Positions 48,110 through 62,754 of a DNA stretch of 64,000 bases are shown in pieces. The DNA is taken from positions 56,001 to 120,000 of the forward strand of contig CAMXCT020006334.1 of assembly GCA_947184155.2 (NCBI GenBank), read 5' to 3'. The position numbers and the translations under genes are program-made. Position 1 is the first letter of the stretch, and each line of letters opens with the position of its first letter. Source of the stretch: Cladocopium goreaui (Eukaryota; Sar; Dinophyceae; Suessiales; Symbiodiniaceae). Under the pieces are notes generated by a model. It made no database searches, was not told the origin of the DNA, and saw only the letters and a program-made list of their open reading frames with translations.

Positions 48110-48163
48110 CGCTGGAATGGTCTGAAATAAGTTGAGAGATATATACATATATCTGTACATATA

Positions 48164-48285
48164 TACCCATGCATTGAGTTTGGCAGGCTTGGGTGTGCAT
48201 GTATCATCTTGAAGTGCCTCAATGAATGCTATCATTTTGGCTCAAGTAAACTCGAACCAAAATAGCATTCATTGCTGTTTCTTTC
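48164..48285 (+). repeat. Split direct repeat A1
   Basis: A 122-bp left terminal repeat, 119/122 identical to A2 (57817-57938) with no indels. It contains a long imperfect hairpin (about 48222-48274) whose left arm includes CATTTTGGCTCAAG, identical to the last 14 nt of the dinoflagellate spliced leader. Confidence 0.95.
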
Positions 48286-48341
48286 TTGGTCTTGGTAAGG
48301 GGTGACCTTCCCTGACCTTGATTGATTGGTTCAGATTCTAC

Positions 48342-48358
48342 ACAAGGGGTGACCTTGT
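48342..48358 (+). promoter_or_regulatory. GGYGA hairpin directly before the first ORF
   Basis: A 6-bp stem (left arm ACAAGG) around loop GGTGA ends on the base before the ATG at 48359. A weaker copy (stem AAGG) lies at 48297-48309. See the list under findings. Confidence 0.7.
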
Positions 48359-49195
48359 ATGCAGCGCAAACTCCCAGGGATCGATATCCCGGCAGCCACC
48401 GAGGCGAAGATCCTCCATGCGGCGGCTTTCTTGGAGTTCAAGGGCCACGTGGAAAGGCTGGCACGGGAGGGCTCTGATCTGGCAGCATACACATGCTGGA
48501 TGCACGGGATTGAAGTGTTGCACTCCCCCTACGTCATCACTACTGGGACGGACTCAGAGCTTTTCCCCCCCCTGCCGAAGCTGCCCTGTTGCCTTGATGA
48601 CTGCCAGCGTTGCGCAGCTCATGTTGGGGGGTTCAAGTTCCCGTGGCTCGGCCTGTGGAATAGCCGCGGAGTTGTGCTGCCAGACGATGTGGCGCCTGCG
48701 GATGCTTGGGCGTACTACTACCAGCACCAGGACCCCATGGACCTTCTGCTGGTTGCCGCCTACACGAAGCTCAAGGTGGCTGCCGACATCGTGCCCCAAG
48801 ATCTCTACGGATTGCAGCTCAGGTGCACAGCGGGTGACGCTGGGCAACTGGGCCTGGGAGAGCTGTTCGATCAATGGAGGAGTTGGCTCAGATGCACGGG
48901 CCCTCACGAGCTCCTGCCGACCTTCCTCGAGCCGCGCCACTTTCCCAGAGCACCCAGGGGGCGACCCTGGCCAGCATGGGGGAGAGAAGGCGCCAGGGCA
49001 CATCGAGCACTATGTGGATGGCTGGAATGCCAGGATGCAGGCGTGCTGCAACTGGGCACGGCCTGCACAGAGTGCGGGGACCCTACAAGGCGCGTGTGCT
49101 GGGCATGCTGCGTCGGGATGTGTAGTGCCTGCTTTACCTGGCGAGAGCCATGCAGCACTTGTGGAGGACGTAAGAAGATGTTTGCTGCAGGTTGA
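48359..49195 (+). CDS. Retroelement ORF a: Cys-rich protein, 278 aa
   Basis: Starts MQRKLPGIDIPAATEAKILH directly after a GGTGA-loop hairpin. Acidic/hydrophobic composition over about 230 residues suggests a folded domain; a Cys cluster follows near residue 238 (CTECGDPTRRVCWACC, then CSACFTWREPCSTCGG), giving five C-x2-C-like pairs expected to bind zinc. The overlapping frame that is open from 48318 has a shadow-like Ser/Arg/Cys-rich composition over this stretch, so I prefer this frame. The stop (49193-49195) lies 4 nt before the ATG of the recombinase ORF, in the +1 relation. Possible role: nucleic-acid binding or Gag-like accessory; no homologue recognised. Confidence 0.75.
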   Translation: MQRKLPGIDIPAATEAKILHAAAFLEFKGHVERLAREGSDLAAYTCWMHGIEVLHSPYVITTGTDSELFPPLPKLPCCLDDCQRCAAHVGGFKFPWLGLWNSRGVVLPDDVAPADAWAYYYQHQDPMDLLLVAAYTKLKVAADIVPQDLYGLQLRCTAGDAGQLGLGELFDQWRSWLRCTGPHELLPTFLEPRHFPRAPRGRPWPAWGREGARAHRALCGWLECQDAGVLQLGTACTECGDPTRRVCWACCVGMCSACFTWREPCSTCGGRKKMFAAG

Positions 49196-49199
49196 TTTT

Positions 49200-51590
49200 A
49201 TGACAGAGGAGGCACCTCTGAAGTCACCGCAGCATCTTTTTGCTCTCCGCACCTTAGCAATTCTATTAGGGTGCAGTGCCATGGCATCAGGCGGCAAAGG
49301 CTACTACGCAGCTCAGGCGGCAGCCTCATCTTCGTCAGGGGGTGACCCTGCACCAGGATGGAGGGCAGCCGACTCTTTGATGATGATAGCTGCACAACGT
49401 GCGCGTCAATGGAGGGAGAATGAAGGCCTCCTGGACGACAACGACTTTGCCTATGCCTACACAGACTACGATCAAGTCGTTGGACTGGCCGGCCATCACG
49501 TAGCGGATGACTGGCTGCAGACGCGAGCAAGGGTGGAAGAACATCTCCTTGCAGCGGGGGCCAAAGTCGTGGAGGACAACCCCAAGGGTTCCGTCACTCT
49601 GCGCCCTGTGCGCAAGACGATTTACAAGAAGAAACCCAAGGCCGTCAACGTCGACAAGAACCTGGATGAAGCCGTCCAGAAGAGAGTGAACGGTTTAGTG
49701 TCGATGTTTGTCGGCATGGGTGCATACAAACCAGCTGGCATCTTGACAGACACCCTCAAGGCCGAATGGAAACAAACGTGCAAGAGGATCGCCGAGAAGA
49801 AGGTGAAGGACGCAGAGAAGGCGACCATTGACCGAGTGGTCAACACATGGTTGGAGCTGAGGGCCTTCTTGGAGAGTCGGGGGCGACCCGCTCCTCCTGG
49901 AATGGTCGACCTGGATCAGTTCCTGAACCATACATCGGCCCCAGCACGAGCACTCCAAGCCTTGAAGTGGATGAACAAGAATGCCGACCAAGATCTAGAG
50001 CTGGGAAACTTGCAAGTGCCCACAACACCCAGGGCGACTGGGCAGCGTGGGCAAGCACCGGTGGTGGAACCGCCGCTAGTGCAAGCCTTGGAGGACCGCA
50101 TCATGGAGTTGCACGCGGTCGGCGACGAGAGGTGGTCAGTTCTCCTGGCCCCTTGGATCATGTCGTTTGGCTGTTTGAGGTATGCGCACATTGCGCGGTC
50201 AGAACCTCGACGTCTCACGGCTGCATTCCTCCATTGCAGGTGCCCCAAAGGAAAACAAAAGCATGCTCGTGAAGGATTCGACTTTGCTGTGCCGGCCACC
50301 TTTGCCAACGGCTTCTTTTGGGCCAAGGAAGTGCTGGAGGCATACAGGACGCTGGCACCAGCGAGGCAGAGACTTGCAGGCCTTTGTTTTTCGGACGAAG
50401 GGCGCCCTTGGACGATCCTTGAAGTGCAAGAAACAATGCAGCAGGAAATGTCCGTGTTCCTCGATAATCCAGAAGACCTGACCACCTACAGCTGGAGGAG
50501 GCTTGCACCAACGGTGGCCCAGTTGTTAGACTGCAGGCCTGAAGAAATGGCAGCCCTGGGCGACTGGCAAGCCAAGAGCGAGCAACCAGAGGTGGGGGCA
50601 ATGGCATTTCACTATTCGTCGGCCAAATACGCCGCGTCGATTAAGGTGAAATCGCTGATCTGGGGTGCTACAGCTAAGCTGACTAGCAACCTGCTGTGGG
50701 AGGCGATCCCGCAGGCAGAGCTAGATGCAGCCCGTGCTCACGGCTTGACGGAGGCCGACAGATTGCTGCGACAAGACCGTCAACCTATGTGGGCCTCCGC
50801 ACACAGCTTTCAGGATGTGAAGAAAAGGCTCAAGCTGTCACAACAGTTTGTTGAAGCGGCGCAGCAAGCCCGACAGGAGGCCGAGGCAGCACCGGCACCT
50901 CAGATGCCTGACCAACTCAAGGGCAAGGTGCTGACAGCCACATTGAAGAATGGCAAGGCTATATGCCCGGACTTCCAGACGGATGAGTGCCCGAACCCGG
51001 CAGACTCTTGTCCATTCGGAGTGCACTTGTGTGCCATCTTACAGAAGTCAGGACGGGCATGTGGTGGCAAGCACGGTGCAGGCATCTGCAACATCAAGCG
51101 AGCAGTGATGGCAGCAACGGCAGTGCCAGCGGCGCCCAAGCCATCGGCCACCTTGGTGCCGGCAGCCGTGGGGGAGAAGGCCACGTTCGGCCGGAAGAGG
51201 ACCGCGGCGAGCGGTGCCACAGACGATGAGATTGCAGATGTGATGCGCACAGCTGTCAAGAAAGCCCGAGGCCAAGCTGCACCCAAGACTCCGCCAAAGG
51301 CACCAGCCATTGCAGCCCCCAAGACGCCTCCGAAGGCCAAAGCCACCACCCCTAAGCCGCTGGCCACAGCTGCAAAGTCCATGGCTGCCGCCACAACGCC
51401 GAAGCGCCTGGCAGCTCCTGGGAAGCCGCAGACCAAGGCCATGCCAAAGAAAGGCCGTGGGAAAGCAGCCGGAGACACCTTGGACCTACACTTGGAGCGT
51501 TGGGTGTGGGCTCAGGGACTGCCCAGGCCCCTACTTGCATCTGGACGTCCCGAAAGGGTGGTGGCATCTACCTGGCAGGACTTCCGATGA
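49200..51590 (+). CDS. Retroelement ORF b: tyrosine recombinase with C-terminal CCCH-like module, 796 aa
   Basis: Predicted to join the reverse-transcribed circular DNA to the genome by strand exchange. Catalytic boxes in order (numbered from ATG 49200): Arg327 in SFGCLRYAHIARSE, basic stretch CPKGKQKHAR, the Arg box TYSWRRLAPTVAQLLDC (Arg433/434), and FHYSSAKYA with Tyr472 as the probable nucleophile. A Cys/His module (C589-x7-C-x6-C-x4-H, then Cys-Gly-Gly-x-x-His) follows, resembling the C-terminus of the Gag-like ORF, then an Ala/Lys/Pro-rich basic tail. The frame is open back to 48318, but the first 294 codons overlap ORF a and look non-coding, so I start at 49200; a start at ATG 49280 or a +1 frameshift from ORF a are alternatives. 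Its TGA overlaps the next ATG. Confidence 0.85.
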   Translation: MTEEAPLKSPQHLFALRTLAILLGCSAMASGGKGYYAAQAAASSSSGGDPAPGWRAADSLMMIAAQRARQWRENEGLLDDNDFAYAYTDYDQVVGLAGHHVADDWLQTRARVEEHLLAAGAKVVEDNPKGSVTLRPVRKTIYKKKPKAVNVDKNLDEAVQKRVNGLVSMFVGMGAYKPAGILTDTLKAEWKQTCKRIAEKKVKDAEKATIDRVVNTWLELRAFLESRGRPAPPGMVDLDQFLNHTSAPARALQALKWMNKNADQDLELGNLQVPTTPRATGQRGQAPVVEPPLVQALEDRIMELHAVGDERWSVLLAPWIMSFGCLRYAHIARSEPRRLTAAFLHCRCPKGKQKHAREGFDFAVPATFANGFFWAKEVLEAYRTLAPARQRLAGLCFSDEGRPWTILEVQETMQQEMSVFLDNPEDLTTYSWRRLAPTVAQLLDCRPEEMAALGDWQAKSEQPEVGAMAFHYSSAKYAASIKVKSLIWGATAKLTSNLLWEAIPQAELDAARAHGLTEADRLLRQDRQPMWASAHSFQDVKKRLKLSQQFVEAAQQARQEAEAAPAPQMPDQLKGKVLTATLKNGKAICPDFQTDECPNPADSCPFGVHLCAILQKSGRACGGKHGAGICNIKRAVMAATAVPAAPKPSATLVPAAVGEKATFGRKRTAASGATDDEIADVMRTAVKKARGQAAPKTPPKAPAIAAPKTPPKAKATTPKPLATAAKSMAAATTPKRLAAPGKPQTKAMPKKGRGKAAGDTLDLHLERWVWAQGLPRPLLASGRPERVVASTWQDFR
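50694..50714 (+). promoter_or_regulatory. GGYGA hairpin inside the recombinase ORF
   Basis: An 8-bp stem (left arm CTGTGGGA, one G-U pair) around loop GGCGA. Confidence 0.6.
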
Positions 51591-52210
51591 GGCAGACTGT
51601 GGACAAGTTCCCCAAGACGGCGTTGCAGATCTGCTGTTTCCCGCATGGTCCTGAGAGCCGGGGGGGGGTGACCCTCCCGGGAGCTCAGTTGATGACCTTT
51701 GCGGCGGCATACAGCCAGGAACGCAACGAGCAGTGGACAGACGTTTGGCCTGCTGTCAAGAATACAGTATGGCATGGCGACAACGTCGTGGTGCACTGCA
51801 TCAAGGGGAGACACCGGGGTGCTTTCTTAGGCATCCTCTGCCGTGCATTGCTGGCCGGTGAGTCCATTGAGGATGCCAACCACTACGTGGAGAGCCGCCG
51901 AGACACAGAGCTGAACAAGGTGATTCGAGACCAAGGCATGCGGAAGTGGCTGCACAAGACCTTCCAGGACACCGCGGTGGGAACACAGCATCCTGAGCCG
52001 CAGGGGTATGCAGCCACGGATCGGTCCAGTACCCATGTCACGGTCGAGGACGGCATCACCCTGTGCCAGCACAAGCAGGCTGACGGGAAGGCGAAACGCC
52101 TGGTGAACCCGTACATGTCCACCGACGTCTTCGAGGCCCTGGCATGGGAGCGCCCCTGGTGTGACCAGTGCCTCCGTCGAGCGCCAGCGTCATGGTGGCC
52201 GCCTGCCTAG
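51587..52210 (+). CDS. Retroelement ORF c: dual-specificity-phosphatase-like protein, 207 aa
   Basis: The centre reads GDNVVVHCIKGRHRGAFLG. Cys followed by five residues and Arg, preceded by a hydrophobic strand and VH, is the active-site signature of protein tyrosine/dual-specificity phosphatases (HCx5R), and the following helix (ILCRALLAGESIEDANHYVE) fits the family as well. The C-terminal part has further Cys/His (LCQHKQADGK ... PWCDQCLRR). The ATG at 51587 overlaps the recombinase TGA (ATGA), which suggests termination-reinitiation; the frame is also open back to ATG 51500. Phosphatases are not a known standard part of tyrosine-recombinase retrotransposons. Substrate (protein, RNA 5' end or other) unknown; a general-acid Asp loop was not identified. 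Confidence 0.7.
   Translation: MRQTVDKFPKTALQICCFPHGPESRGGVTLPGAQLMTFAAAYSQERNEQWTDVWPAVKNTVWHGDNVVVHCIKGRHRGAFLGILCRALLAGESIEDANHYVESRRDTELNKVIRDQGMRKWLHKTFQDTAVGTQHPEPQGYAATDRSSTHVTVEDGITLCQHKQADGKAKRLVNPYMSTDVFEALAWERPWCDQCLRRAPASWWPPA
51658..51680 (+). promoter_or_regulatory. GGYGA hairpin near the start of ORF c
   Basis: A 9-bp stem (left arm CCGGGGGGG, one G-U pair) around loop GGTGA. Confidence 0.6.
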
Positions 52211-52742
52211 GATGCCCAAGCCGAATTTTTGGCCTTTGCGCTGATCAGCAGCACTGGCCCGTTCCGGCCATGGAGAGCCGAATTCATCAGCTCGGGGCTT
52301 GGATAAGAGCTTCAATCCAGCCTGCATGACCGCCCCCAGCAGTGACATCGAGTGCGAGAGGAAAAACAGAAGGGCAGGAAGAGTCACAGTGGGTATCCCA
52401 CTGAGTCGACAGCTGCTGCCCTCACTTCGTTTTGCTGTATTGTCACTTTTCTTTTTACCACATCGCACATGACCATCTGGGAGGGGGACCCCAGAGATTC
52501 AGGTGTACCACAGCTATGTGGCTGCATGAAGGTGATTTCATGTGAGGTCAACACACGGCTGTGAGTTGTACACATGTCCTGCTGCAACAATAGTGATATT
52601 TAGTGAAATTCAGTGTCCATTTCTTTTCATGTCATGCCAGGCCGTCCCAGCGCATCGCACGGGGGAGACCCGAGGCGCAGTTTTCAGTCAAAGGGAGGGG
52701 ATCCCTGGGCCTTAGTTAGAGGGGTGTCCTCGAGAACAGGCC
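52211..52742 (+). other. Spacer between ORF c and gag with a probable trans-splice acceptor
   Basis: 532 bp without a credible ORF. It contains a pyrimidine-rich tract ending CATGTCATGCCAG/G (AG at 52639-52640), a good 3' splice acceptor for spliced-leader addition about 100 nt before the gag ATG. It also contains a hairpin at 52525-52542 (stem CATGAA, loop GGTGAT) and a GGAGA-loop variant with stem CGGG near 52656-52670. A separate promoter cannot be excluded. Confidence 0.5.
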
Positions 52743-53942
52743 ATGGAGACTGATAAAGTCCCACTGGAAAAGGGTTCCCCGGAAGAAATCCTAAAGAAGT
52801 TGGGTGACAACTTCTCGTTGGATGATGGGGTAGTTGAAGCCCTGCTCCGGTTGGGCGTCGAAAGTTTGCAAGAGTTTCGGTTTCTATGGGCATCTGAGCA
52901 AGCCATTGAAACCTGGGTGGCTAAGCTGGGCCTGGGGGATAAGGCACTGCTGATGACAGCTCGAGTCCGCAGAGCGTGGGCCGCGGTGGGACTCTACTAT
53001 CGTCAAGTGGAGCAGGATCGATCCAAGATCGCATTGTCGGACTTGGATACTATGCTTGGGGAGACCGAGCTGCGTGACACCAAGCAGCAGTTTTGGAGGC
53101 GCTACAAGATGCGTTTCCCCCCAGAGATCCACCCTGCAGACACCACCATCTCCAGGGTAGCCAGAGAGATGCAGAAGCGCATGCTTTGCGTTTACAACAT
53201 TTGGCGAGTCAAGACCCTTCAATTCCAGCTCACCACATCGCAGAAGAAGCGCGAACTCAGCGAAGGGCTGTTCTTGGAAGACGGCGACGATGAGGAGGTG
53301 GTGACCCATGATGTTGACAACTATCTGGACCGGCTGTTTACCCTGATGTTAGCTTATGCCATGGCAGGGTGCTCTGGGGCGACCGGAGCACTAGACGCGG
53401 CGCAAGAGCTCAACTTGGGAGCAGACACAGTCAAGTTCGTCAACGTTCCCATGGACGTCGTCTACAAGTACTACTTTCGAGCCAAACGCAGTGTGGCAGG
53501 TTTGCCCACATCACAGCGCATGCAGTGGCTCCAGGCCAAAGATGTGGAGGAACGTAGTGAATGGGTGTCCAAATTCCGTGAATCCACAATGAGCTTGGGC
53601 CAAGTGATCAGCGAGGTCTACACATCCAGGGACGCACATTGGTCTGCACCAGGGCCAGCTACCCCGGACAAGAAGAGTGCAGCCCCCACTGCAGCTTCCA
53701 CTGCAAGTCCATCCAAAGTGCCACCAAGTTCATCACCACTGAAGTTGGGAAAGCCGATCAATGGCAAGCCTGTGGCGACGGCCATGAAGGATGGCACCAA
53801 ACTTTGTGCACAATTTCAACGAGGAGGTTGCAAGGCCAAGCCCTGTCCTCAAGGAGCCCATCGATGCGGAGCAGTTGTCAGGAAAGACCGGGTGTGCGGA
53901 GCCTTCAACCATGGTGCAGCCAACTGCACCGGCAAGCGTTGA
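52743..53942 (+). CDS. Retroelement ORF d: Gag-like protein with CCCH-like module, 399 aa
   Basis: Probable structural/nucleic-acid-binding protein of the element particle. Residues 1-310 are helical and charged (start METDKVPLEKGSPEEILKKL) with no enzyme motif. A Ser/Pro/Ala-rich linker follows, then the C-terminal Cys/His module: C355-x7-C-x4-C-x4-H, then CGAVVRKDRVCGAFNHGAAN and C395. The same module ends the recombinase. The ORF is in the same frame as pol, separated by one TGA (53940-53942) and 24 further sense codons without a stop. The calling as Gag rests on position before pol and the zinc module, not on recognisable capsid homology. Confidence 0.75.
   Translation: METDKVPLEKGSPEEILKKLGDNFSLDDGVVEALLRLGVESLQEFRFLWASEQAIETWVAKLGLGDKALLMTARVRRAWAAVGLYYRQVEQDRSKIALSDLDTMLGETELRDTKQQFWRRYKMRFPPEIHPADTTISRVAREMQKRMLCVYNIWRVKTLQFQLTTSQKKRELSEGLFLEDGDDEEVVTHDVDNYLDRLFTLMLAYAMAGCSGATGALDAAQELNLGADTVKFVNVPMDVVYKYYFRAKRSVAGLPTSQRMQWLQAKDVEERSEWVSKFRESTMSLGQVISEVYTSRDAHWSAPGPATPDKKSAAPTAASTASPSKVPPSSSPLKLGKPINGKPVATAMKDGTKLCAQFQRGGCKAKPCPQGAHRCGAVVRKDRVCGAFNHGAANCTGKR
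52795..52815 (+). promoter_or_regulatory. GGYGA hairpin at the 5' end of gag
   Basis: An 8-bp perfect stem (left arm AGAAGTTG) around loop GGTGA. Confidence 0.65.
53369..53391 (+). promoter_or_regulatory. GGYGA hairpin in gag
   Basis: A 9-bp stem (left arm GTGCTCTGG, one G-U pair) around loop GGCGA. Confidence 0.65.
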
Positions 53943-53997
53943 CACACCCCAGAAGAGGAGGCGGCTGCCTCTTTTGGGTCAGATGGGCTAGAGCCGC

Positions 53998-54014
53998 AAG
54001 AGGGGCGACCTCTT
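53998..54014 (+). promoter_or_regulatory. GGYGA hairpin directly before the pol ATG
   Basis: A 6-bp stem (left arm AAGAGG) around loop GGCGA; it ends on the base before ATG 54015, the same arrangement as at 48342-48358. Confidence 0.7.
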
Positions 54015-57000
54015 ATGGCAGATCTCATGGCAGGTCCCAACGCCCCCCTCACCAAAGCATTCATCAGTTGTGGATGGCGATGCCTAACAGTGGACTGGTT
54101 GTTGGATGACAGCCACGACCTATCTGATGAGCGCCGGCAACACTCCTTGAGCAAGCAGCTTGAAGAGGTGATCTTCATAGCGGCAGCCATCGATTGCTCT
54201 ACGAAGAGCAGGGCCAGGGAGATCCCTAGGAAGTTCGAAGATGGGCGGCCAGCCCCTGGCCCTCTTCGATCGGAGGTATATCCTGATGGCTTGCCCCACC
54301 TCAATAGCCGGGATGCCCAAAGAGTCGACCTGGACAACAAAGCCTGCAACTATGTCTTGGGAGAGATTCAGAAGTTGCGGGACCGGGGGGGAGGCAGCGT
54401 GCGTGAAAACCCTGCCCGCTCCCTGCACTGGTGGACGTCCACTGAAGTGACCATGTGGGAATCGGGACAATGGTTCGACACAGCCTATGCGGCATGTACC
54501 TTAGGCGGGGCGCGTTGCAAACATCAAGTGTTACGACACAATGTGGAGGAGATCCAACGGTGGCCCCCGGCCAATTGCCACCATGTGCATGACCCGCAGG
54601 AATGGACCCCCTACACATCTGGCGGCCAAAGGTTCTATCCTTCCAAAGAAGAGGCGGAGTACACAGCAGTCCTTGCCTTTGCCATTGCAGTGTCGGCTAG
54701 CTGGTGGGCAGTCCGCACAGGGTTAGCCATACTGCATGTCCCACGCATGCCCACTTTCTTGTCAGTGGGACGTCGTGAGCACTGGCTGGATATGGACCCG
54801 CGCGCAATGCGGGAATGGGCCATGGCACCATTGGCAGTGACGCTGGGTCTGGCAGAATCCCTGCGAGCCGAACGGCCGGGGTTACCGGTCAGGAAGCTCG
54901 TCAAGGATGTCATGATCGAGAACAACAGACTGCCACGCAAGACCATCTACGTCGGCCGGGGCAGCTTCCATCATCGCCTGTCGACAACCAAGTGGAAATC
55001 TCCATGGACACCAGGCCACAATTGCGAGGCCGGTGAATGGCCAGCCAGGTACATTGTCCACATCAGGACATCACCTTTGTGGGAGGCCTTGCATGAGCTC
55101 AGCGGCATGGTGCTGGCGTGTGACTGCCCCATGGAGCACTTGTGCGAAGCCGATATGCTCATCGGACTCTTCTTTGACGCCACTGCACCTGGGGGCGACC
55201 CGATGCAGAGGGGTACCGATGGCAGATGGAGCCGGACCGTGGCCTTGCTGCAGGGGATCCAGGCTATTCCCAAAGGTGTAGCCCTACCCATGATGAGCCA
55301 AGAAGCACTGGTGTTAGCCTTCCAGAAGCTTTTCCCCGAGCAATGGTTCAAGAACTACAAGTTCGCGATGGTTGAAGACCTCATCAACAGCCCACCTTTC
55401 TGCTCATATGCTGCTTGGCTAGCAGAGCGAGGAGAAGCTTGGGATGGCCCCCTCGTCCCGCACCTTGCTGCTGGGTCAGTGAGGCAGCTTGCACGGATTG
55501 GGGATGGGTGCCAAGTTGGTGCGATGACACACCGAGCAGCCTTGCCACCGCTGCTGCCATTCAACTTGGATCCCGATGACCACTTCAACCAAGCCGTACA
55601 ACGAGCTCAGCAACCATTGCCCTATGAAGATCTCCCAGTAGTTGACTTGGATCTGGAGTTCGTAGCTGATGCCTATGCAGCACATGGCCAACCATTGCGC
55701 CCGTGGCGACAACATGCAGTAGGGGCCATGCGCGAGCTGAAGAGACGTTGGGAGGGGGTGACGCTCCACTTGCGGTCTTTTCAAGAGCCTGCCATACAGC
55801 AAGTCACACGGCATCGCGATGTGGGGTTCATCGCACTGTTGATGCTGCTGACGTCATGGGCCGACACCAGTTTTCCCTATGGCTTGATCCGTGGGTTACC
55901 AGCAGTGTGGTACGCACCACCATATGGAGTCTTCCCCCAACAACCGGCTGAGGTGATCAGCATGTCCGACGTGTTGGATGGATGGCAAGAACACAACCAG
56001 CACATCTTAAACCAGCTGCGAGCAGGCAAGGATGATGAGTTCCTCCTGCAGCAATCGTTGGAGGATGCAGCGAATGGCTTCTGCACAGCACCCTTGCGGC
56101 GGTCAGATTTCCTGAGGTCCATTGGCAACAAGGCACATAGATTGATCCCACGTTGCGTGATCACGCAAAGCTCCGGCAAGCAGCGAGTGATCGACAATGG
56201 TGACACTGGAGGACAATCAGCCTTATCATCCGATGCCAACAAGCTTACATTGTGCAGCCCCTTGCGCCCTGCACAACACATTCGTTTGGCGATGCATCGT
56301 TGGACAGAGGAAGAGATATCCGACTTCTTTGCACGCGATGCCTGGGAGACAGGACAAGAAGATCTGCCTTCAGCATACAGGTATTGCCCTATGGCATTGC
56401 AGGAAAGCCTGGGATGCGTGGTGGTGTGGTACCATCACGAGTGGCAAACCCCTGCATACCAAGTATACGCTGGGCTGCTCTTCGGGCTGCCGTTAGCAGT
56501 TACCTCCTTTAACAGATTTTCCAGACTGTTGGAGGCGCTAGCCAGGCGCTTTTGCCGAGTTCTGACATCCCTATACTTCGATGACGCAACCATCACAGAC
56601 CTGCGCTCTTCAAAAGGATCTGGCCAATGGGCCATGAATCAATTGTGTGCCTTGATCGGCTCCCCCTTCGCCGAGGACAAGAAGCAAGCAATGCAGAGCA
56701 CAGGAACCTTCTTGGGGCTGACCCACGATCTTAGCTGCATCAACCAAACAGGGCATGTGCGCTTTTGGGCTCGGGAACGTCTCCATGACAAGGTACGTGA
56801 TCTGTTGGCTACTGCCAGGGTGACTGGCCATTTTAGCCGAGGGGCAGCATCGAAGCTGTACGGACTGGCCAATTTCCTGGAGCAGGGCATTTACGGTCGA
56901 GTGGGATATGGTGGTCTTATGGCGATCAAAGCCAGACAAGATGAGCCCACCTCAACCATAACCCCGGAGATTGAAGCATGCTTCGAGGTGATCGAAGCAG

Positions 57001-57584
57001 TCATGCGCTTTCAGCCAAAGCGGGAATTTCCCGTTCTGCACCTGGATCATCTGCGCTTCCTTGCGGCCTCCGACGCGGCTGTCGAAGCAGACAATCCTGG
57101 TTCAGGAGGTTTTCACCTGATCTTTTTCCAGCCAGACGGATCACAAATTCGTCACAGTTTTGTCGCCACCAATTGTGCAGAGCTTCAAGCACTTTGGCAA
57201 CCTGCAGAGACACACATCGCCCAATTAGAACTATCAATGGTGCTCTACGCCCTAGTCGAAAGGCCTGACCTGTTTCGAAACCGACACGGCCTCTGGTTTT
57301 TGGACAACGTGGCAGCCGTCATGACGCTAGTGAGAGGACGTTCTAGCAATGCCGACTTAGCGAAGCTAGGTCATTTGATCCATCTAGCTCTGTTTGCACT
57401 GCGAGCCCAAGGATATTGGGAGTACGTCCAGAGCAAGAGCAACTGGGCTGACGACATCAGCCGACTTGGCGTCGACGATCCATGGTGGCGATGCCATGGT
57501 TTTGACTTTCATTCGTCGTACCTCCCTACAATCTTTTTCCAGCTGCCTTTTGCTGCTGTCATTCTCACCTTCGAATACCTTTAG
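54015..57584 (+). CDS. Retroelement pol: methyltransferase-like, DUF4326-like, reverse transcriptase and RNase H domains, 1189 aa
   Basis: Domains in order (residues from ATG 54015). About 45-140: methyltransferase-like region with AAIDCSTKSRAREIP (Cys61) and ENP (131-133); the usual PPC before Cys is replaced by AID, so activity is doubtful. About 308-390: DUF4326-like, with IYVGRGSFHHRL, a W-x-SPW stretch and LACDCPMEHLCEADML. About 713-900: reverse transcriptase with GKQRVIDN, Asp783 in EDLPSAYR, GLPLAVTSFNRFSRLLEAL and the catalytic YFDD (854-857). About 1015-1150: RNase H with Asp1020, Glu1072, Asp1097 and Asp1146/1147 (NWADDISRLG). No integrase, consistent with the recombinase encoded upstream. 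The same frame as gag; expressed by readthrough of the UGA or by reinitiation. All catalytic RT and RNase H residues are present, so it may be functional. Confidence 0.9.
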   Translation: MADLMAGPNAPLTKAFISCGWRCLTVDWLLDDSHDLSDERRQHSLSKQLEEVIFIAAAIDCSTKSRAREIPRKFEDGRPAPGPLRSEVYPDGLPHLNSRDAQRVDLDNKACNYVLGEIQKLRDRGGGSVRENPARSLHWWTSTEVTMWESGQWFDTAYAACTLGGARCKHQVLRHNVEEIQRWPPANCHHVHDPQEWTPYTSGGQRFYPSKEEAEYTAVLAFAIAVSASWWAVRTGLAILHVPRMPTFLSVGRREHWLDMDPRAMREWAMAPLAVTLGLAESLRAERPGLPVRKLVKDVMIENNRLPRKTIYVGRGSFHHRLSTTKWKSPWTPGHNCEAGEWPARYIVHIRTSPLWEALHELSGMVLACDCPMEHLCEADMLIGLFFDATAPGGDPMQRGTDGRWSRTVALLQGIQAIPKGVALPMMSQEALVLAFQKLFPEQWFKNYKFAMVEDLINSPPFCSYAAWLAERGEAWDGPLVPHLAAGSVRQLARIGDGCQVGAMTHRAALPPLLPFNLDPDDHFNQAVQRAQQPLPYEDLPVVDLDLEFVADAYAAHGQPLRPWRQHAVGAMRELKRRWEGVTLHLRSFQEPAIQQVTRHRDVGFIALLMLLTSWADTSFPYGLIRGLPAVWYAPPYGVFPQQPAEVISMSDVLDGWQEHNQHILNQLRAGKDDEFLLQQSLEDAANGFCTAPLRRSDFLRSIGNKAHRLIPRCVITQSSGKQRVIDNGDTGGQSALSSDANKLTLCSPLRPAQHIRLAMHRWTEEEISDFFARDAWETGQEDLPSAYRYCPMALQESLGCVVVWYHHEWQTPAYQVYAGLLFGLPLAVTSFNRFSRLLEALARRFCRVLTSLYFDDATITDLRSSKGSGQWAMNQLCALIGSPFAEDKKQAMQSTGTFLGLTHDLSCINQTGHVRFWARERLHDKVRDLLATARVTGHFSRGAASKLYGLANFLEQGIYGRVGYGGLMAIKARQDEPTSTITPEIEACFEVIEAVMRFQPKREFPVLHLDHLRFLAASDAAVEADNPGSGGFHLIFFQPDGSQIRHSFVATNCAELQALWQPAETHIAQLELSMVLYALVERPDLFRNRHGLWFLDNVAAVMTLVRGRSSNADLAKLGHLIHLALFALRAQGYWEYVQSKSNWADDISRLGVDDPWWRCHGFDFHSSYLPTIFFQLPFAAVILTFEYL
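56979..56999 (+). promoter_or_regulatory. GGYGA hairpin in the RNase H region
   Basis: An 8-bp perfect stem (left arm TGCTTCGA) around loop GGTGA. Confidence 0.65.
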
Positions 57585-57605
57585 TGCTTTGGGAGTTTAG
57601 TGCAT

Positions 57606-57818
57606 TGGGTGATTCCTGCAGAGCAGGTTCCAGCCTGGGTTGCCAGGCAGCTGACCAGTGGTGAAACTGGTCTGGGGCTATGTACATGTCACACAGTGAC
57701 GACCCAAAGCAAACCTGAGGATTGCAGGTGAAATTGACTGAGCATAGGCATAGCTGTGGAAAAAGAAAGCTGCGGGAGCGCGAGACAGTATCTGTTTCAT
57801 ATGACACTTTGAGATGTA
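57606..57818 (+). repeat. Split direct repeat B1
   Basis: 213 bp, one mismatch to B2 (58086-58298). Begins 21 bp after the pol stop and ends GAGATGTA, sharing TA with the start of A2. Contains a hairpin at 57653-57672 (stem GACCAGT, loop GGTGAA). Confidence 0.95.
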
Positions 57819-57938
57819 CCCATGCATTGAGTTTGGCAGGCTTGGGTGTGCATGTATCATCTTTAAGTGCCTCAATGAATGCTATCATTTTGGCTCAAGT
57901 AAACTTGAACCAAAATAGCATTCATTGCTTTTTCTTTC
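57817..57938 (+). repeat. Split direct repeat A2
   Basis: 122 bp, three mismatches to A1. Its hairpin has a TAAA loop and arms of over 20 bp interrupted by a small bulge. CATTTTGGCTCAAG (57886-57899) matches the 3' end of the dinoflagellate spliced leader. A 147-bp single-copy stretch follows up to B2, with a GCCTGC/GCAGGC hairpin near 57998-58012. Confidence 0.95.
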
Positions 57939-58036
57939 CCCACCCTCCCAACCCCAAGAGCCGACCTCCCGTGGAGATGTCCGCCTAGGTTAGGGGAGCC
58001 TGCAAGGCAGGCGAGTCCATAGCCTCTATCGGGGAT

Positions 58037-58061
58037 CCTCTCTTGGGGCGACCAAGAGAGG
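58037..58061 (+). promoter_or_regulatory. GGYGA hairpin in the 3' non-coding region
   Basis: The longest of the set: a 10-bp perfect stem (left arm CCTCTCTTGG) around loop GGCGA, between A2 and B2. Confidence 0.75.
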
Positions 58062-58085
58062 TTTACCCTCCCTTAGGTTAAGGGA

Positions 58086-58298
58086 TGGGTGATTCCTGCA
58101 GAGCAGGTTCCAGCCCGGGTTGCCAGGCAGCTGACCAGTGGTGAAACTGGTCTGGGGCTATGTACATGTCACACAGTGACGACCCAAAGCAAACCTGAGG
58201 ATTGCAGGTGAAATTGACTGAGCATAGGCATAGCTGTGGAAAAAGAAAGCTGCGGGAGCGCGAGACAGTATCTGTTTCATATGACACTTTGAGATGTA
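58086..58298 (+). repeat. Split direct repeat B2
   Basis: 213 bp, 212 identical to B1, including the GGTGAA-loop hairpin (58133-58152). Its right end (GATGTA) is the right end of the element; AT-rich flanking DNA follows at once. Confidence 0.95.
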
Positions 58299-58640
58299 AT
58301 TATATATTGTATGTAGACAATAGATATATAATATATGATATATAATAACCATATATATTTATAATATATAATATACAAATATACATTCTATAATATTACA
58401 TTACATTACATTATTTTTTTATATTATATTACATTATATTATATTATATTACAGTTTATATCATATTATATTGCAGTTTAGTTTATATTATATTATATTA
58501 TATTATATTATATTATATAATATTATATTATATTATATTATATTATATTACATTATACTATATTACATTATATTATATTATATTATCTGATATGATATTG
58601 TATTATATTATATTATAGTATGTAATAAATATATATATAT
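58299..58640. repeat. AT-rich microsatellite flanking the element
   Basis: Long TATTATAT/TATTACAT runs. Similar simple sequence lies left of the element (48139-48163), so the insertion target was AT-rich simple DNA. Confidence 0.95.
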
Positions 58641-62190: not shown

Positions 62191-62397
62191 TTATGAGTAG
62201 ACTATGTTTCCTTGACAGGAACTTTTTTGTTTATGCAATTTTACTGGTTTTTACTGCAATAGTATTCACCCCGCTTCGCGTGGGGTGGCCGCCCACACCG
62301 CAGGTTTATTTCGGTCCGTGAGAGGGGCTAAGGGTGGTGTGGAATATGAGGAGCAGAGCAGCACAGGAGAATTGACATACATAACTGCTGGGTTCGT

Positions 62398-62703
62398 GAA
62401 TATTTTCACTTTCCCCCCCCGTGGGGGCTCCCCAAGCTAGGGAATTTTCACTTTTCCCCCCCGTGGGGGCTCCCCAAGCTAGGGAATTTTCACTTTTCCC
62501 CCCCCGTGGAGGCTCCCCAAGCTAGGGAATTTTCACTTTTTCCCCGCTGTGGGGGCTCCCCAAGCTAGGGAATTTTCACTTTTCCCCCCGTGGGGGCTTC
62601 CCAAGCTAGGGAATTTTCACTTTTCCCCGCCGTGACAGCTTCCCAAGCTATGGAATTTTCACTTTTCCCTCCCTTGGAGGCTCTCCAAGCTGCGGAATTT
62701 CAA
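62398..62703. repeat. Tandem repeat, about 42-bp unit, seven copies
   Basis: Unit: AATTTTCACTTTTCCCCCC then GTGGGGGCTCCCCAAGCTAGGG. Copies differ by a few bases and by the length of the C run. Each holds a small GGGG/CCCC inverted repeat. Confidence 0.95.
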
Positions 62704-62754
62704 AATAGCTAGACAACGACGCCTAGATAGTCCCCCAAATCCCGTGTTCTTTGA

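Follow-up and report, generated by a model that had tools for sequence, protein, structure and literature searches.

In this work, we analyzed a 64,000-nucleotide stretch of the Cladocopium goreaui genome (assembly GCA_947184155.2, contig CAMXCT020006334.1, positions 56,001 to 120,000 of the forward strand; hereafter the window), and specifically a retroelement located on its plus strand at 48161-58309, which carries a dispersed set of hairpins with a common loop. The element has the order A1 - coding - B1A2 - B2, the repeat A1 (48161-48285) being 97% identical to A2 (57814-57938) and B1 (57606-57829) 97% identical to B2 (58086-58309), all in plus orientation. On the basis of these split direct repeats and of the set of proteins encoded we classed it as DIRS-like. 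Copies occur elsewhere in the same genome (1.17 Gb), and the A-coding-B-A-B arrangement recurs in two of them, L070 and L071. Within A1, positions 48220-48274 match their own opposite strand at 79% (79-83% in other copies), forming an imperfect palindrome.

Five plus-strand open reading frames (ORFs) were used for the analysis: a protein of 278 aa with a Cys-rich C-terminus (48359-49195), a recombinase-like protein with a C-terminal Cys/His module (49281-51590), a phosphatase-like protein (51500-52210), a Gag-like protein of 399 aa with a C-terminal Cys/His module (52743-53942) and a protein of 1189 aa joining a DUF4326 domain to a reverse transcriptase (RT; 54015-57584). By tblastn, each of the five other 10-kb element loci contains homologues of these five proteins in unchanged order, the Cys-rich ORF included, several copies being frame-broken. 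The Cys-rich ORF has no Pfam match and overlaps a long open frame of another phase. No tyrosine recombinase domain was matched by Pfam in 49281-51590, where the R/H/R/Y pattern, with its R..R..Y arrangement, was read by eye only. The phosphatase-like ORF overlaps the preceding one and its start is uncertain; it carries an HCx5R signature, reading HCIKGRHR here inside a retroelement, and its relatives give weak matches to tyrosine and dual-specificity phosphatase profiles (E 0.01-0.03, below the curated Pfam cut-offs). DUF4326, N-terminal to the RT, was matched with an E-value of 1.4e-7, above the Pfam cut-off, and RVT_1 with 5e-4, below it; the YFDD motif was read by eye. At least 111 DUF4326 matches were counted in the genome, many of them within long open frames. 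A stop divides the Gag-like and RT frames in the window element, while in the related locus L041 (4648-9222) both form a single open frame of 1525 codons. The SymbioDIRS elements of Symbiodinium likewise show A-coding-B-A-B repeats, an RT and a recombinase ORF (PMC5890265); the window element differs from them in having no methyltransferase match in Pfam and in carrying DUF4326 and the phosphatase-like ORF. A term search of the main text of that paper gave neither "hairpin" nor "stem-loop".

The initial annotation had listed 20 hairpins with a GGYGA loop in this element, and all of them are present, the two flagged as weak or mismatched being indeed so. Given as left arm/loop and all on the plus strand, those lying upstream of the Gag-like ORF are AAGG/GGTGA (48297-48309), ACAAGG/GGTGA (48342-48358), CAGCG/GGTGA (48828-48842), CCAGGG/GGCGA (48954-48970), CAGGG/GGTGA (49336-49350), CGGG/GGCGA (49878-49890), CCCAG/GGCGA (50028-50042), CTGTGGGA/GGCGA with one G-U pair (50694-50714), ACCGC/GGCGA (51201-51215) and CCGGGGGGG/GGTGA with one G-U pair (51658-51680). 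Within the Gag-like ORF are AGAAGTTG/GGTGA (52795-52815) and GTGCTCTGG/GGCGA with one U-G pair (53369-53391), and AAGAGG/GGCGA (53998-54014) stands between the Gag-like and RT ORFs. Further downstream are TGAAGA/GGTGA (54161-54177), TGGG/GGCGA (55190-55202), weak, with an outer G-U pair, and wholly Watson-Crick in L071, GGAGGG/GGTGA (55751-55767), with one mismatch and wholly paired in L070 and L071, GCTGA/GGTGA (55947-55961), GCCAG/GGTGA (56814-56828), TGCTTCGA/GGTGA (56979-56999) and, between A2 and B2, a 10-bp hairpin with a GGCGA loop (58037-58061). The six-base-loop variants described at the same time are also there, namely CATGAA/GGTGAT (52525-52542) and GACCAGT/GGTGAA in both B1 (57653-57672, loop at 57660) and B2 (58133-58152, loop at 58140).

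Two details of that description had to be amended. The GGYGA words of the element number 51 (26 GGTGA and 25 GGCGA) rather than about 45, and the loop is better written GGNGA, as five additional hairpins carry another third base: CGGG/GGAGA (52660-52672, loop at 52664), AGGGA/GGGGA (52692-52706, loop at 52697), GCTTGG/GGAGA (53054-53070, loop at 53060), with a U-G pair that is C-G in other copies, TGGA/GGAGA (54544-54556, loop at 54548) and CCTG/GGAGA (56341-56353, loop at 56345). Hairpins were counted from here on when at least four perfect Watson-Crick pairs surround the loop, unless stated otherwise. Among the 20 GGNGA hairpins that are perfect in this sense, the third loop base is T in 9, C in 7, A in 3 and G in 1, and the closing pair is G-C in 13, A-T in 6 and C-G in 1. 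Fourteen of the 20 fall inside the ORFs used, where the loop starts in codon phase 0/1/2 in 3/2/9 cases, and 6 lie outside; the corresponding phases of the code hairpins of two related loci are 4/9/8 (L040) and 8/8/5 (L039).

These 20 hairpins represent 20 of the 84 plus-strand GGNGA words of the element, versus none of its 29 minus-strand words, 1 of 210 and 1 of 160 on the plus and minus strands of the rest of the window (2/370), and 56 of 10061 for the other five-base loops of the element (Fisher, 1.5e-25). Stems of at least 5 bp surround 14, and of at least 6 bp 7, of the 84 GGNGA words, the figures for the other five-base loops being 12 and 5 of 10061. The single 4-bp case that the initial annotation had placed outside the element, near 1526-1538, exists, but at 1527-1539, one base off. 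Dinucleotide shuffles of the element (n=300) gave a mean of 0.32 GGNGA hairpins and a maximum of 3, and synonymous-codon shuffles of its coding parts (n=1000) a mean of 0.97 and a maximum of 5, with 14 observed. Both shuffles rule out chance, dinucleotide composition or codon composition as the source of the hairpins. When all loop patterns of 4-6 nt were scanned under common conditions with AT-only loops masked, GGNGA was the best pattern in the element (log10 p -23.7), whereas no pattern fell below -4.7 in five 10-kb stretches taken from the rest of the window. Rfam gave no match above the gathering score in 48161-58309. The dispersed hairpin set is thus confirmed, and it is stronger than first described.

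To place the set in context, we used loci from a protein search of the genome with Gag, in which 104 of 658 first-look candidates were scored; the relatives listed comprise copies at 83-100% identity, one at 69% and groups at 54-57%. Five 10-kb loci, 20 short Gag-region loci, two further 10-kb copies and four 5-kb loci were analyzed, not all of them independent, as L041/L043, L039/L040 and the copies with the GG loop are relatives. When loops of 3-9 nt on stems of at least 4 bp were scanned for every two- to four-base pattern, the top five- or six-base loop was GGNGA in the window element (log10 p -23.7) and in L042 (-20.2), NGNNA (-15.6) closely followed by AGNNA (-15.3) in L041, AGNNA in L043 (-17.2) and L040 (-11.5), and AGNNNA in L039 (-9.4); longer patterns that took in the closing pair reached -13.2 in L039 and -11.7 in L040, the latter also having an AT-repeat loop (TATA) at -11.4. 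Under the common conditions the values were -20.2 for L042, -15.6 for L041 and -9.3 for L039. Two families about 54% identical to the window Gag thus have codes of their own, one AGNNA and the other AGNNA plus AGNNNA, with similar numbers of hairpins. The 5-kb loci L073 and L074, relatives of L040 (90 and 95%), gave NGTTNA (5/15, -8.4) and GNGNNNAC (5/28, -6.4) as best patterns, both of the AGNNNA type, and L075, about 82% identical to the window element, retains GGNGA.

In every locus counted, the code hairpins are nearly all in the plus orientation. GGNGA words stand in stems on the plus versus the minus strand in 23/89 vs 0/35 cases in L071, 17/73 vs 1/50 in L042 and 9/39 vs 0/27 in L075 (5 kb), and AGNNA and AGNNNA words together in 22/351 vs 1/246 in L041, 25/376 vs 1/245 in L043, 23/347 vs 0/278 in L039 and 26/344 vs 1/250 in L040, the two strands of the rest of the window giving 10/1739 and 9/1517. 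The codes are also little shared: AGNNA hairpins number 1/162 in the window element, and GGNGA hairpins 0/58 in L039 and 2/68 in L041. Six copia RT-region loci from this genome, 22 kb in mixed orientation and scanned on both strands, showed no enrichment and never fell below log10 p -4.7, with GGNGA at 0/73 and 1/68, AGNNA at 1/481 and 0/330 and AGNNNA at 2/533 and 0/310 on the two strands. In L072, a 5-kb locus with 33% Gag identity, the best pattern was NNNAT (11/267, -5.7) and the next NGNAT (7/98, -5.4); the latter stands at 7/98 on the plus strand against 26/4868 for other loops there, and at 1/68 on the minus strand. Among 60 shuffles the best value was -5.0, and we take NGNAT only provisionally as the loop code of a possible fourth family. 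The median hairpin spacing is 299-449 nt in five loci and 650 nt in L072. No relatives were found in the viral contigs or in the prokaryote genomes searched.

The copy L070 (C1269:120700-130690) is a 4.9-kb internal-deletion derivative that keeps both termini and 10 GGNGA hairpins, possibly a non-autonomous form; its retention of the hairpins is weak evidence for selection in cis, because what is left of it still shares 97-99% identity with the window element.

The fixed and free positions of the hairpins can also be followed among copies. Six hairpins were followed through an alignment of the Gag region, which comprised 45 sequences (43 unique) at 77-100% identity, that of the window among them. 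Three of the six vary at the N base (53378, 54004 and 54167). As to the other loop bases, two sites each show a change in a single divergent copy, and the loop at 52697 has a one-base deletion in seven sequences. The stems vary mostly through G-U, some pairs being broken, and certain copies lack the stretch. Of five 5' hairpins followed in nine sequences, three hold their loop size throughout, one (48954-48970) has a loop enlarged by an insertion in L006 and L042, and one (49336-49350) is missing from the aligned stretch of L042, in which the hairpin at 48348 has exchanged an A-U for a G-C pair together with a change of the N base. Three pairwise comparisons, window/L042 (76%), L041/L043 (94%) and L039/L040 (81%), covered 75 ungapped hairpins, 7 gapped ones being excluded. 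In these, 384 stem pairs were unchanged, 21 were changed yet still paired (6 two-sided Watson-Crick, 6 one-sided Watson-Crick and 9 to G-U) and 20 were broken, and changes were found at 25/155 N positions, 17/242 fixed loop positions and 219/1486 flanking positions. At one AG-family site compared in eight copies the outer pair is C-G, U-G or A-U, and one copy has lost the loop code. Most sites differ between the GG and the AG families; two of them (50702 and 56987) coincide with L041/L043 hairpins whose loop has switched. At 56987 the peptide FEVIEA is identical in the window element, L041 and L043, and synonymous codons account for GGTGA in the first and AGTCA in the other two; at 50702 GGCGA stands against AGTGA and the peptides differ (WEAIP vs WEVIP).

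Taken together, these results point towards dispersed, family-specific hairpins on the plus-strand RNA of the element, which are probably bound by a module that the element itself encodes and which would serve packaging or self-recognition. The notion of a dispersed, plus-oriented recognition code, already put forward in the initial annotation, is supported by the single orientation, by loops that are fixed on stems that are free, by the loops of the sister families and by the lack of enrichment in copia. As the stems are free and the loops fixed, a reader of some kind is implied, and the different loop codes within one genome together with the unenriched copia loci make an element-encoded reader likely and a host reader unlikely. 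In the mechanism that we propose, (i) the genomic plus-strand RNA would carry about two dozen recognition hairpins, each combining a stem of about 4-10 bp and of any sequence, in most cases with a G-C or A-U closing pair, and a loop with G at position 2 plus the fixed bases of the family, (ii) the loops would be bound by the RNA-binding module of the element, most likely the C-terminal Cys/His module of the Gag-like protein, or alternatively its diverged copy in the recombinase-like protein, (iii) many Gag molecules would load on one RNA, which would thereby be selected, condensed and packaged for reverse transcription, and (iv) each family would have drifted to a loop of its own, so that its proteins prefer the RNA of their own family. 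Of this, the hairpins, their orientation, the constraint on the loop and its family specificity are observed, and action as RNA, the reader, its binding and a packaging purpose are inferred. On a further proposition we are evenly divided, namely that the codes, nearly exclusive and present 17-26 times per RNA, are each read by the Gag or recombinase module of their own family and amount to a self/non-self barcode for packaging, in which reader and code co-evolve through G2-anchored loops, partly by synonymous change.

The candidate module has the form C-x7-C-x4..6-C-x4-H-x-C-x9-C-x4-H-x4-C in the Gag-like proteins of the window, L039, L040, L041 and L043 (by eye, C-x7-C-x4-C-x4-H-x-C-x9-C-x4-H-x4-C in the window), and the pattern was not found in L042, whose frame is broken. 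The description of these modules as CCCH-like, given at the outset, applies to half of the window Gag module, which as a whole is a longer Cys/His array and not a plain CCCH finger. Nor does it have the spacing of a retroviral zinc knuckle, C-x2-C-x4-H-x4-C, as C-x9-C-x4-H-x4-C follows the CCCH-like half. A diverged copy is present in the window recombinase-like protein. The recombinase-like proteins of L040 and L041 probably have one as well, as tblastn matched the Gag C-terminus at the equivalent position in both. In human immunodeficiency virus type 1 (HIV-1), the zinc knuckles of the nucleocapsid protein bind guanosines 2 and 4 of GGAG and GGUG tetraloops (PMC7599994, PMC3759924). The SL3 GGAG and SL2 GGUG loops resemble GGNGA in that a free base separates two guanosines, at positions 2 and 4, so that two of its four fixed positions are matched; they differ in that the HIV hairpins sit in the leader packaging signal and that the module of the element has another Cys/His spacing. 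From the family-specific loops, the Cys/His modules and this likeness together we infer multi-site binding by Gag for packaging or self-selection. Lin28, whose zinc knuckles are related to those of HIV nucleocapsid, also reads GGAG, although it is encoded by the host and its targets are microRNA precursors and mRNAs (PMC3759924).

A GNRA-like pentaloop, which has G as first base, A as last base and a purine before the last, had been suggested as the form of the loop. As a general rule this was rejected, since only GGNGA fits, and AGNNA and AGNNNA start without G and leave position 4 free.

Several observations weigh against the binding and packaging that we propose. The parallel with HIV is only partial because the AG families leave position 4 free, and replacing the GGAG loop of HIV did not significantly affect packaging (PMC7599994). 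The Gag-like ORF has no convincing relative in Pfam or in PDB, the two PDB matches obtained with the Gag alignment (E 0.34 and 0.84) being rejected as chance level, so that the name "Gag-like" rests on position and module. Pairing is kept in 21 of the 41 changed stem pairs of related copies, but 20 are broken without compensation, most of them at stem ends or in hairpins that were lost, and just 6 are clean two-sided Watson-Crick changes. Of the refuting conditions named in the initial annotation, the shuffles and the minus strand thus leave the hairpin set standing, and the comparison of related copies has a mixed outcome. L042 changed 8 of 68 fixed loop bases, two of the five 5' hairpins are altered or missing, and individual copies drop a fixed loop base. 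Finally, in local folds the helix probability is about 0.1 at most for six of 23 window hairpins. In favor of the proposal, the mean helix probability exceeded 0.5 in 86 of 122 code hairpins against 39 of 125 sampled other-loop hairpins, two groups whose stem lengths were unmatched.

An element-encoded reader might instead regulate translation or the fate of the RNA, by feedback repression, localisation or export. The hairpins occupy the spans of four of the five window ORFs as well as intervals between ORFs, one of them at the Gag-RT junction (54004); three stand near the end of Gag in L072, and in MS2 the translational repressor hairpin doubles as a packaging signal (PMC6281560). Nevertheless, 17-26 scattered sites per about 10 kb, in all reading phases, exceed the needs of one switch, and we consider regulation in place of packaging unlikely.

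A host RNA-binding or RNase III-like factor could also read the loops. Yeast Rnt1p, which reads AGNN tetraloops, offers an analogue, and AGNNA resembles AGNN with its G at position 2. However, families sharing one genome have different loops, the six copia loci show no enrichment, and the stems are short, which makes such a host factor an improbable reader.

Likewise improbable, in our judgement, is an action of the hairpins in single-stranded DNA of the element, during replication, strand transfer or recombinase binding. The DIRS-like nature of the element would suit it, and a Watson-Crick hairpin is possible in DNA too. The initial annotation had taken G-U pairs, which it saw as most of the stem exceptions, as a sign of RNA. 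They do prevail in number, the interior non-Watson-Crick pairs of the code hairpins being 11 G-T, 1 A-C and 11 other in the window, L042, L041 and L040, and 17 G-T, 1 A-C and 17 other when L039 and L043 are added, but not clearly above the background, as other-loop hairpins of the same loci also favor G-T over A-C (45 vs 20 in four loci, 62 vs 31 in six). The excess is accordingly weak, with Fisher p-values of 0.16 (four loci) and 0.02 (six loci), related loci being counted separately, which counts against our proposal and lends room to DNA; as a proof of RNA the G-U excess was set aside. The orientation is the stronger argument for one single-stranded plus molecule. It fits any such molecule and does not point to DNA, and 1 A-C versus 17 G-T pairs leans to plus-strand RNA, so that we regard action as RNA as the simpler reading, though not as a proven one.

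A functionless mutational process making short palindromes, which could have templated perfect stems of unrelated sequence, is very improbable given that each family has its own loop, that changes are rarer at fixed loop bases than at N bases or in the flanks, that some stem changes are compensatory and that the copia loci of the same genome show no enrichment.

Recognition by packaging hairpins has precedents. Many dispersed stem-loops with a common loop motif occur in the packaged genomes of MS2, satellite tobacco necrosis virus and picornaviruses (PMC6281560), and the pregenome of hepatitis B virus (HBV) has dispersed packaging signals with RGAG loops (PMC7612645). The element resembles these single-stranded RNA viruses and HBV in its many dispersed hairpins with one common loop motif, on an RNA that would be packaged, and differs from them in being a retrotransposon, in its strict loop, in the coexistence of several families per genome with different loops and in that protein recognition is so far putative. 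In Ty1 and Ty3, the RNA of the element is believed to be recognised by its own Gag through sequences acting in cis, and for Ty3 the zinc finger is critical (PMC4974528), whereas no repeated loop code is described in the excerpted text of that source. Literature searches over titles and the starts of abstracts gave no such hairpin set in a retrotransposon and no loop codes differing by family within one genome, and a search combining dinoflagellate, retrotransposon, RNA hairpin and packaging found nothing. In viruses, the short and degenerate motifs of dispersed packaging signals make these difficult to prove; the element instead has a strict motif and a tiny null expectation, and the sister families of one genome provide natural loop swaps. 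If the proposal is true, a small protein module and short RNAs would allow a direct test of how a retroelement tells its own RNA from that of many relatives, and the loop would be a sequence handle predicting which family mobilises which defective copies.

Two further repeats were observed downstream of the element. An AT-rich TATAT array (58331-58633) lies directly 3' of B2, possibly as part of the insertion site, and a minisatellite with units of about 42 bp occupies 62373-62715.

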